From Candidatus Hermodarchaeota archaeon (GTDB taxonomy: Archaea > Asgardarchaeota > Hermodarchaeia > Hermodarchaeales > Hermodarchaeaceae): DNA of 64,000 nucleotides. A model generated the notes under the pieces. It had not been told where the DNA came from, searched no databases, and saw nothing but the letters and a program-made list of their open reading frames with translations. Position numbers and translations under genes: made by a program. The stretch covers positions 1-64,000 of the forward strand of contig JAEOTO010000022.1 of NCBI GenBank assembly GCA_016839805.1, in the 5' to 3' direction. Shown in pieces: positions 30,435-33,804 of this stretch; within the stretch, counting starts at the first letter, position 1, and each line of letters begins with the position of its first letter.

Positions 30435-31247
30435 GTGCCAGAACTTCCTGACCTTGAAGTCGCTAAAAATATTCTAAATCGTACCCTTTCAGGGTTGACC
30501 ATCGATGAAGTCGAAGTTGGCAGTCCTATTCTATTGCGTCGTCCTACAGCAGAAATTTTTGAAACGACACTTAATGGATCGTCAATTAGAGAATACATGC
30601 GATATGGTAAATTCCTTAATTTCCACTTCGAACCTCCTGCTCAGTTATACATTAATTTCATGCTTGCTGGACGACTCAGACTCCAATCGCCCTCAGATCC
30701 TAAACAGAAAAAAATGGGATTTCGGTTCAAGTTGGAAAATGGCTTGGATTTACGGTACCTTGATGCTAGAAACATGGGTAAGATCTATTTGCTTCTTAAA
30801 GAGGAATCAACAGCACTCATTCCAAATTACGATGAACAAGGTCCTGATGCGCTTGATCCCCAATTAACGCTTGATGTGTTTTGTCGACGGATTAAACGGT
30901 TTAACGCCGTAATTAAACACGTGCTGGTTAACCAACGATTTATTGCCGGCTTAGGGAATGCCTATGCTGATGAAATCCTCTTTATTGCTCATGTGATGCC
31001 GTTTCGTAAACGTTCAACCCTGACCGATGCAGAAATCGCGGCTCTATATAACGCAACTAAATCAGTACTCCAAAACGCTATTACCACCATCACAGCCCGC
31101 ATCGGAGATACTCTTCAATTTGAGGTCCGTGATTTCCTCCAAGTCCATGGAAAAGGCGGAGAACCCTGTCCCAATTGTGGCTCACCCATTTCCTCGGTGA
31201 AATCTGGACTTCGTGTAGCAAATTTTTGTCGAAAATGTCAAATTTGA
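30435..31247 (+). CDS. mutM: Formamidopyrimidine-DNA glycosylase (Fpg/MutM)
   Basis: A bifunctional base-excision repair enzyme that removes 8-oxoguanine and formamidopyrimidines and nicks the AP site. The GTG at 30435 gives Met-PELPDLEV, so the catalytic N-terminal Pro-Glu is exposed once Met is removed. Other marks: YGKFL with the conserved Lys, the H2TH segment FIAGLGNAYADEILF, and the C-terminal zinc finger CPNC...CRKCQ. At 270 residues it is the normal length. Family members are widespread in bacteria but scarce in archaea, so this may be a transferred gene. It starts 37 bases after the YhfC-like gene. Confidence 0.94.
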   Translation: MPELPDLEVAKNILNRTLSGLTIDEVEVGSPILLRRPTAEIFETTLNGSSIREYMRYGKFLNFHFEPPAQLYINFMLAGRLRLQSPSDPKQKKMGFRFKLENGLDLRYLDARNMGKIYLLLKEESTALIPNYDEQGPDALDPQLTLDVFCRRIKRFNAVIKHVLVNQRFIAGLGNAYADEILFIAHVMPFRKRSTLTDAEIAALYNATKSVLQNAITTITARIGDTLQFEVRDFLQVHGKGGEPCPNCGSPISSVKSGLRVANFCRKCQI

Positions 31248-31434: not shown

Positions 31435-32808
31435 GTGGTACTTTATGGAATCTGGCTCATTGATGCAAACAGTGGATTACTCCTCTCGCATGTCACTATA
31501 CCGGGGTTTACCTTTAACCCTGATCTCTTTTCAGGATTCATCGCTGCAAGCCACGATTTTGCACAAGAAACCTCTGGAGGCAAGCTTAGCACCATTGCCA
31601 TGGGGAATTTCAAACTCTTAATTCGGCGAGGACGAGTCCTCATGAAGGTTCTCGCCGTTGGTGCCCGCGATCCTGAAACCCGGTATGACCAATTTTTCAA
31701 AGATATTGAGGAGAAAGTAGATCCCGCTTTAGCACATCTACATCGTGAACCCAATGGGTTTAAAGCCGTCACTATCGAATTTCGCAAACAACTGATAGAA
31801 ATAATTACCAAAGAACTTAACCGCTTTGTCACAAGGAAAGCGCCATCTGATTTGTCAGATTTAACGATTTTACAAGAAGACGAAGCACGTACGCTCATAC
31901 AAGCCTTACTACAACGCCAAAGTGCTGAGCTAGTCCCCAAACTCGCTACCACTAAAATGGGGTATTCATATCCACTCGCATCCTCAATCACAGGACTTGA
32001 TGATGAAGCTGCCTTGCAATTACTCGAACACCTCGCGGATTATGGATTACTGCTTGCTGAAGTCACCGATTCATCACTGGCTTGTCCCCAATGTGATTCG
32101 TTGCATCTGCATCCCCACATACTCTGTCCTGGTTGTCAAACTCCTGCCCAACCAGTTGGGCTCTTCGAACACCTCCCATGTGGAACCATTAGCGTAAAAC
32201 TAGATAACGAACAGGAACTCTACTGTAACCGGTGTGGAACCCGAAACGGGGATGACTCTGAATTCCGGGTATTTCGGGGATACCAATGTCAACAATGCAA
32301 CTCTTTTTTCAAAAAACCCCAAATGGTCTTCACCTGCCATTCCTGCCATACCATTACTGAACCCGAAAACGCGAAAGTAAGGGTTTTAAAGAAATACGTT
32401 TTGAATCCCGCTCTCATCTCTGATCTCGAATTCATCCTAGCAAAACCAAAGAAACCATTACTACATCAAGCAAGCACAACAGAAATCATGAAAGAACCCC
32501 CACCGCTTGACCCGTCCATATCTGTCACAACAGAAACGATTCCTCAGATTGTCAGTCAATCTAATGCAGATGAATTTCTTGAACCCACAGTGCTTACTCC
32601 GGTACACATTGACCCTATCGAACCAGTTAACTCCCCAACAGAACCAATGGAGAAAATAGTCACCAGAGATGAAGCTCAACTGGTTCAAGAGCTTAACTCG
32701 CTTGAATCAGCGCTTCGCTCAGGGGCTATCACTGAAGCTGAGTACGATCGGAAATTCGTCCGAATTAAACTCCAACTCCGCCGAATCCGGTCACAAGAAA
32801 TCCTCTAA
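31435..32808 (+). CDS. Longin-like + winged-helix + multi-zinc-ribbon (TackOD1-like) protein
   Basis: A 457-residue modular protein. Residues 1-105 look like a longin/roadblock-type alpha-beta domain (YGIWLIDANSGLLL, FSGFIAASHDFAQE, IAMGNFKLLIRRG). Residues 145-212 appear to be a winged helix. Residues 217-304 contain ten-plus cysteines in pairs (CPQC, CPGC, CNRCG, CQQC, CHSC), with EHLPCG between, in the order of the archaeal TackOD1 output domain. A Pro/Thr-rich linker leads to a C-terminal helical hairpin (ELNSLESALRSGAITEAEYD) of SHOCT type. The combination suggests a signalling or regulatory adaptor. The start is GTG with GAGGTG eight bases upstream. The domain calls are by pattern only. 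Confidence 0.6.
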   Translation: MVLYGIWLIDANSGLLLSHVTIPGFTFNPDLFSGFIAASHDFAQETSGGKLSTIAMGNFKLLIRRGRVLMKVLAVGARDPETRYDQFFKDIEEKVDPALAHLHREPNGFKAVTIEFRKQLIEIITKELNRFVTRKAPSDLSDLTILQEDEARTLIQALLQRQSAELVPKLATTKMGYSYPLASSITGLDDEAALQLLEHLADYGLLLAEVTDSSLACPQCDSLHLHPHILCPGCQTPAQPVGLFEHLPCGTISVKLDNEQELYCNRCGTRNGDDSEFRVFRGYQCQQCNSFFKKPQMVFTCHSCHTITEPENAKVRVLKKYVLNPALISDLEFILAKPKKPLLHQASTTEIMKEPPPLDPSISVTTETIPQIVSQSNADEFLEPTVLTPVHIDPIEPVNSPTEPMEKIVTRDEAQLVQELNSLESALRSGAITEAEYDRKFVRIKLQLRRIRSQEIL

Positions 32809-32952: not shown

Positions 32953-33804
32953 GTGGAAATCAAACGCATCGCCGTTATCGGTGCTGGTGCCATGGGTACA
33001 GGAATCGCCTACCAGGCCGCCCGATTCGGCATCGAAGTCAACCTCAACGACATCAAACAAGAATTCATCACCAACGGCATGAACAAAATCAAATCCATGG
33101 TCAAAACCGGCGTCGATAAAGGCAAACTCGATCTCAAAGGCGCTAAAGCGATCGTCGAAGGCATCAAACCAGTCCTCGACGTTACAGAAGCCGTCAAAGA
33201 TGTCGACCTAATCGTTGAAGCTATCTACGAAAACATGGAAGCCAAGAAAGAACTCTTCAAAAAAATAGACGCCGCTGCCCGATCTGATACCATCTTCGCT
33301 ACTAACACCTCAAGCCTCAGCGTCTCTGACATGGCTACAGTAACCAAACGTCCCGAGAAAGTGGTTGGAACACATTTCTTCAATCCTCCATATACGATGA
33401 AATTGGTCGAGATTGTGGTGGGGGATAAAACGGCGGAAGAAACGATTGAAACAGCGATTGCGTTCAGTAAAAAGCTCGATAAAACACCGGTGAAAGTGAA
33501 AGATTCTCCAGGTTTTATTGTTAACCGCGTTCTTGGTGCTCTAATGGGTGAAGCTATCAGGATTCTCCAAGAGGGCCTTGCCACAGCAGAAGATATTGAT
33601 ACAGCTATGCAACTTGGAGCCAATCATCCAGTGGGACCATTAACCTTGGCTGACTTTGTCGGGTTAGATATCGCTGTCGCCACCGCTAACACTCTTCATG
33701 AAGGTTTTGGTGAGTGTTATTCAACACCAAAGTTGCTGTTGGAAAAAGTGGAAAAAGGCGAACTTGGTATGAAATCCGGTAAAGGATTTCACGAATACAA
33801 GTAA
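32953..33804 (+). CDS. hbd: 3-hydroxyacyl-CoA dehydrogenase
   Basis: NAD-dependent oxidation of 3-hydroxyacyl-CoA (third step of beta-oxidation, or the reverse). The Rossmann motif IAVIGAGAMGTGIAYQAA starts at residue 6. The catalytic His lies in VVGTHFFNPPYTMKLVEIV and the Glu follows at the end of that segment; TPVKVKDSPGFIVNRVLG opens the C-terminal helical domain. The 283-residue length is that of 3-hydroxybutyryl-CoA dehydrogenase. It starts at GTG with AAGGTGA upstream. It leads the four-gene beta-oxidation operon. Codon choice changes within the gene: mostly C-ending in the first 400 bases, more G/T-ending afterwards. Confidence 0.96.
   Translation: MEIKRIAVIGAGAMGTGIAYQAARFGIEVNLNDIKQEFITNGMNKIKSMVKTGVDKGKLDLKGAKAIVEGIKPVLDVTEAVKDVDLIVEAIYENMEAKKELFKKIDAAARSDTIFATNTSSLSVSDMATVTKRPEKVVGTHFFNPPYTMKLVEIVVGDKTAEETIETAIAFSKKLDKTPVKVKDSPGFIVNRVLGALMGEAIRILQEGLATAEDIDTAMQLGANHPVGPLTLADFVGLDIAVATANTLHEGFGECYSTPKLLLEKVEKGELGMKSGKGFHEYK

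Follow-up and report, generated by a model that had tools for sequence, protein, structure and literature searches.

We find that a gene of a Hermodarchaeota archaeon encodes a protein in which a predicted longin domain is joined to the cysteine-rich domain TackOD1, with a SHOCT-like hairpin at the C-terminus. The gene lies within the window, the whole 64 000-nucleotide stretch of DNA that was analysed. The original prediction that a longin-like domain is fused here to a TackOD1-type domain is borne out by a sequence profile, an AF2 model, Foldseek matches to longins and a Pfam match to PF18551 at 86.1 bits. Both domains were known already; judging from sequence comparison, what is new is their union and its likely recurrence. 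The supposition that such a fusion had not been described also holds, in that we found no longin–TackOD1 protein in the literature searched, although the search was made mostly without subscription papers and absence from it is not proof. Nor is a longin fusion among the architectures listed for TackOD1 (Galperin et al., 2018; PMC5847659).

The open reading frame (31435–32808, + strand) starts with GTG and encodes 457 residues with no internal stop. The orthologues share this start position, and in three of them the codon is ATG. The full-length gene is kept in all five genomes, representing five species, of the window's genus at 65–90% identity, and among the Asgard genomes searched the exact order of longin, TackOD1 and SHOCT-like tail occurs only in this genus. 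Compared with the nearest orthologue, pN/pS is 0.02 in the longin domain and 0.04 in TackOD1, rising to 0.14 in the tail and 0.51 in the linker that precedes the tail. This is a real gene with every domain under purifying selection, since it is present at full length in five genomes, with shared neighbours and with the selection just described.

The upstream neighbour (30435–31247, + strand) is an Fpg-like DNA glycosylase gene, recognized from its sequence (PELPDLEVAK start) and kept in four of the five genomes, these being the ones with a contig that reaches it. Downstream, a 3-hydroxyacyl-CoA dehydrogenase-like gene (32953–33804, + strand; assigned by reading the sequence) is kept in all five and opens a β-oxidation-like run that continues with enoyl-CoA hydratase-like and thiolase-like genes. 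The intergenic gaps that flank the fusion gene in the window are 187 and 144 bp, which suggests separate transcription units. In two genomes of a sister genus (L152, L158, L159; G005, G006) the Fpg-like gene stands directly before the dehydrogenase gene, 106 bp apart, without the fusion gene. Because the sister locus is otherwise the same, the gene would appear either to have been gained in the window's genus or to have been lost in the sister genus.

The longin domain (31435–31836, + strand) comprises residues 1–134, with a core of residues 1–102 and a C-terminal helix at 108–134. A Pfam search gave no match for the protein's own N-terminus. Similar segments are found in further proteins of the window's genome and in other Asgard genomes, and a profile of 52 such Asgard homologues compared with the PDB matched TRAPP BET5 (E = 1.4e-5) over residues 3–102, followed by MON1 (1.2e-4), AP-2 sigma (7.8e-4) and SRX (0.0045). 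Weaker matches were to Sec22b, VAMP7 and COPI zeta, interspersed with the MglB roadblock and a small number of unrelated chains. Of 224 Asgard genomes, 221 contain a match to the profile of this longin family.

The AF2 model of residues 1–139 (pLDDT 83, pTM 0.79) has strands at 3–10 and 16–21, a helix at 29–47, strands at 53–55, 59–65 and 69–76 and helices at 81–94, 96–102 and 108–134, which is the b-b-a-b-b-b-a-a-a order of a longin. When the model was compared with the PDB using Foldseek, all 50 of the matches listed were longin or roadblock proteins, including AP-2 sigma, FUZ, BLOC-3, TRAPPC1, the LAMTORs, Mon1–Ccz1 and MglB. TM-scores are moderate, about 0.4–0.65 by query length, with TRAPPC1 (7b6d_C) at 0.65/0.62, and matches to the full-length model are dominated by the longin part, give no information on TackOD1 and include no wHTH protein. 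According to PMC10933270, a longin is told from a roadblock by its additional helix at the C-terminus and by the absence of a helix ahead of strand 1. The modelled domain begins with strand 3–10, lacks the preceding helix that would mark a roadblock/LC7 fold and carries the additional C-terminal helices. For these reasons of topology we assign the N-terminus, on the profile and the predicted fold, as a longin domain; of the longin or roadblock type first proposed, the roadblock half is ruled out.

TackOD1 (31870–32400, + strand; residues 146–322) matches PF18551 with 86.1 bits (E = 2.8e-24) against a cut-off of 32 bits, and the orthologues score 77–85 bits. The AF2 pLDDT is about 85–97 across the domain. 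The first part (31864–32049, + strand; residues 144–205) has predicted helices at 144–147, 149–160, 180–186 and 190–202 and leads into a strand at 206–216, with pLDDT mostly >90. From this order of elements the first third of TackOD1 can be described as winged-helix-like. It lies within the PF18551 match, and the winged helix originally proposed is retained as a segment of TackOD1 and rejected as a separate domain.

The zinc-ligand region (32083–32346, + strand), also mostly modelled with pLDDT >90, carries the motifs CPQC 217, CPGC 231, HLPC 246, CNRC 264, CQQC 285 and CHSC 301. These were taken from the sequence and from a motif scan, the non-overlapping pattern of which misses CPGC 231, a motif plain in the sequence itself. 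Eleven Cys columns are invariant across 21 aligned TackOD1 domains. Five CXXC motifs and one HXXC give 12 ligands and therefore probably about three zinc sites. The TackOD1 likeness first noted is upheld, while the five zinc ribbons are replaced by this single domain. A search by sequence for a related solved structure gave assorted zinc-binding chains only, the best being DNA polymerase D DP2 (0.0008), and was uninformative. TackOD1 has been described as a domain of obscure function, with 11 conserved Cys residues spread over five CXXC motifs and one HXXC, that occurs in TACK archaea, in Odinarchaeota and in certain bacteria; the architectures listed, thaumarchaeal ones included, are TackOD1, REC-TackOD1 and REC-wHTH-TackOD1 (PMC5847659). 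Pfam detects no REC domain in the fusion protein; TackOD1 does not need one, since a stand-alone form is among those described.

A disordered, fast-evolving linker (32443–32658, + strand; residues 337–408) follows, with pLDDT 30–55 over most of its length, 26–62% identity and pN/pS of 0.5–0.7 against the orthologues. The protein ends in a helical hairpin (32659–32805, + strand; residues 409–457) formed by helices 411–429 and 434–456, with pLDDT 90–95 over most of it and 61–88% identity among orthologues. The SHOCT tail of the original prediction is thus supported as a conserved two-helix hairpin but not as a Pfam SHOCT domain (PF09851): the score is 16.8 bits against a cut-off of 27, three orthologues score 14–21 bits and the fourth is unlisted. 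A match of the tail to GvpG is similarly low-scoring. We refer to the hairpin as SHOCT-like; with a score below the Pfam cut-off, membership of the family is not proven.

A search of 228 Asgard genomes located TackOD1 in 56 of them. Reading 49 of the proteins, together with a Pfam scan of representatives, identified as partners an Lrp/AsnC HTH with its ligand-binding domain, an Mrr-like nuclease domain, short helical hairpins and a divergent N-terminal domain. In L017, for example, Pfam places HTH_AsnC (5.7e-15) and AsnC_trans_reg alongside TackOD1, an architecture absent from those listed in PMC5847659. Further such fusions (L018, L019, L014–L016, L025, L028, L031 and L033) were assigned by similarity, only L017 by Pfam. 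Two proteins, L027 and L030, have a helix-hairpin-helix-like N-terminus, TackOD1 and an Mrr-like nuclease C-terminus, assigned by Pfam at threshold in L027 and by similarity in L030. A tree built from 49 TackOD1 domains unites the five fusion proteins in a single clade (99/100), the neighbours of which, with moderate support (80/87), are Lrp-linked TackOD1 domains of the same family.

The divergent N-terminal domain, about 120 residues long, precedes TackOD1 in 25 of the 49 proteins. Neither a profile of it compared with the PDB nor a Pfam search gave a meaningful match. When aligned with the longin family of the fusion protein using hhalign, it matched in register over 88 columns with a score of 28.5, whereas none of 200 column shuffles scored above 17.4; the probability that hhalign itself assigns is just 44%. 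On this comparison with the shuffled controls the divergent domain is probably a distant longin, although the rows of one family, f28, taken alone did not show the in-register likeness. Since many other Asgard genomes encode TackOD1 with this longin-like N-terminus, the longin–TackOD1 combination is probably not a one-off, with a divergent version widespread in Asgard archaea. A second TackOD1 protein, which has this divergent N-terminus and is 304 residues long, is encoded in the same genome outside the window (L003:893-2361; G000:C10, about 75.3–76.8 kb). The L003 gene and its orthologues (including L138–L143) lie tail-to-tail, 4–15 bp apart, with a gene for a Rab/Ras-like GTPase (Ras family by Pfam, E = 7.2e-55) in seven of eight Hermodarchaeota genomes, spanning two genera.

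Several known systems invite comparison. The TackOD1 proteins (PF18551/arCOG06883) of PMC5847659 share the domain and its pattern of five CXXC motifs and one HXXC; unlike the fusion protein, they lack both longin and SHOCT-like tail. Asgard longin–GTPase and longin–TRAPPC3 fusions belong to the same fold family but carry a GTPase, roadblock or TRAPPC3 rather than TackOD1 (PMC10933270). Likewise, the Asgard Vps28C–adaptin–longin proteins combine a longin with effector domains in one multidomain protein, whereas they are without the zinc-rich TackOD1 and are tied to ESCRT (PMC10936438). The TackOD1–Lrp/AsnC proteins such as L017 have the TackOD1 sequences nearest to that of the fusion in the tree, with a C-terminal Lrp HTH and ligand-binding domain in place of an N-terminal longin. 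Proteins of about 300 residues such as L003 and L051 do have a longin-like domain directly preceding TackOD1, but the longin-like subtype is far more divergent, there is no SHOCT-like tail and their TackOD1 is not the closest relative of that in the fusion.

Upon the observed domains, their order and the conservation of the domains and tail, we place a model in which dimerization, contact with a GTPase, contact with nucleic acid and the direction of signalling are what we infer. The protein would be soluble and would act as a regulator with three parts. At its N-terminus the longin would form homodimers or heterodimers and so offer a platform to a small GTPase or a further longin protein; TackOD1, with its winged helix and roughly three zinc sites, would be the effector, its most likely contact being nucleic acid or the transcription apparatus; assembly into dimers or larger units would be aided by the flexible linker together with the SHOCT-like hairpin. 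Dimerization and small-GTPase binding are frequent among longins, though not universal. Our preference, a tentative one, is that the longin platform senses which state a small GTPase or partner longin is in and signals this to TackOD1, which would bind nucleic acid. The coupling of a GTPase input to nucleic-acid or protein binding, as first suggested, is plausible and indirectly supported.

Three observations lead us to favour the GTPase platform. Firstly, the N-terminus is assigned as a longin, and its closest solved folds include TRAPP, Mon1–Ccz1, BLOC-3, CPLANE, Ragulator and MglB, which are GTPase-handling platforms (PMC10933270). Secondly, the same longin family is fused to small GTPases in the window's genome. 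Thirdly, there is the pairing of the divergent paralogue with a Ras-family GTPase, the weight of which is reduced because the surrounding four-gene block is itself conserved and the pairing may be plain synteny. A nucleic-acid effector is favoured by the fusion of TackOD1 to Lrp/AsnC, to the Mrr-like nuclease (at threshold) and, in thaumarchaea, to REC and wHTH. The grouping with Lrp-linked TackOD1 domains and the winged-helix-like ends of several Asgard longin proteins lend further support. Against our preferred reading, no GTPase gene adjoins the fusion gene, the neighbours of which are metabolic. In addition, many longins, such as SNAREs and AP sigma, are not GTPase regulators, and winged helices can bind protein, as in ESCRT-II.

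An alternative that we consider somewhat unlikely is a membrane-traffic scaffold. In it a GTPase or adaptor would be the partner of the longin, protein–protein contacts would be the role of TackOD1 and of the SHOCT-like hairpin, and nucleic acid would be uninvolved. Among the Foldseek matches listed, the structural neighbours are trafficking proteins, and PMC10936438 describes Asgard ESCRT-related proteins that contain winged helices and zinc ribbons, some with a longin. Moreover, the type IV pilus loci of thaumarchaea include arCOG06883 (TackOD1) proteins (PMC4858521). However, several Asgard partners of TackOD1 are Lrp/AsnC or nuclease-like, and no membrane anchor was seen on reading the 457-residue sequence.

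It is unlikely that the protein is a ligand-sensing regulator that acts without a GTPase, its longin/roadblock-like fold sensing a small molecule or merely dimerizing and its TackOD1 controlling the adjacent acyl-CoA genes. The fixed place of the gene directly upstream of the acyl-CoA run throughout the genus would fit, as would the proposal that REC-associated 'output' domains may be inputs, NitrOD3 being roadblock-like (PMC5847659). Nevertheless, the sister genus shows that the run does not need the fusion gene, and the intergenic gaps speak for separate transcription. That the N-terminus is not a longin, or that the fusion is an assembly or reading-frame artefact, is very improbable: the missing Pfam match and the moderate TM-scores are outweighed by conservation of the full-length protein in five genomes, purifying selection on every domain, the longin profile and Foldseek matches, among those listed, exclusively to longin or roadblock proteins, which together refute it.

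Asgard archaea possess many longin domains and small GTPases but no known endomembrane system. The attachment of a longin to a zinc and winged-helix regulator domain suggests that some such machinery served nucleic-acid signalling rather than traffic. Extending our preferred reading, longin–TackOD1 proteins might connect small-GTPase signalling of the trafficking type directly to gene regulation in Asgard archaea at large, with more than one origin and a different longin subtype involved in each, a generalization that we hold to be quite doubtful. The fusion protein is small and soluble-looking, so the binding of GTPase and of DNA or RNA is directly testable.

Among the other longin proteins of the genome, L133:937-1836 is a longin fused to a small GTPase (Arf by Pfam, 8.6e-20) and L134:1498-2364, from its sequence, a longin fused to an Arf/Ras-like small GTPase. 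L005:607-1875, L002:1492-2175, L128 and L136 are longin proteins with winged-helix-like C-termini and weak Pfam matches, L005 with a weak roadblock match as well. The combination of longin and winged helix seems to recur among Asgard archaea. In the large Asgard family f28, a comparison of match positions shows for more than 20 genomes that the divergent longin-like TackOD1 gene shares its contig with a query-type longin gene, the two lying within a few kilobases of each other. The regions inspected (L103, L104, L106, L107 and L109) often hold a second longin gene and, in most cases, a MinD/ParA-like ATPase gene; one type of the query-type longin ends in a TrmB-like winged helix.
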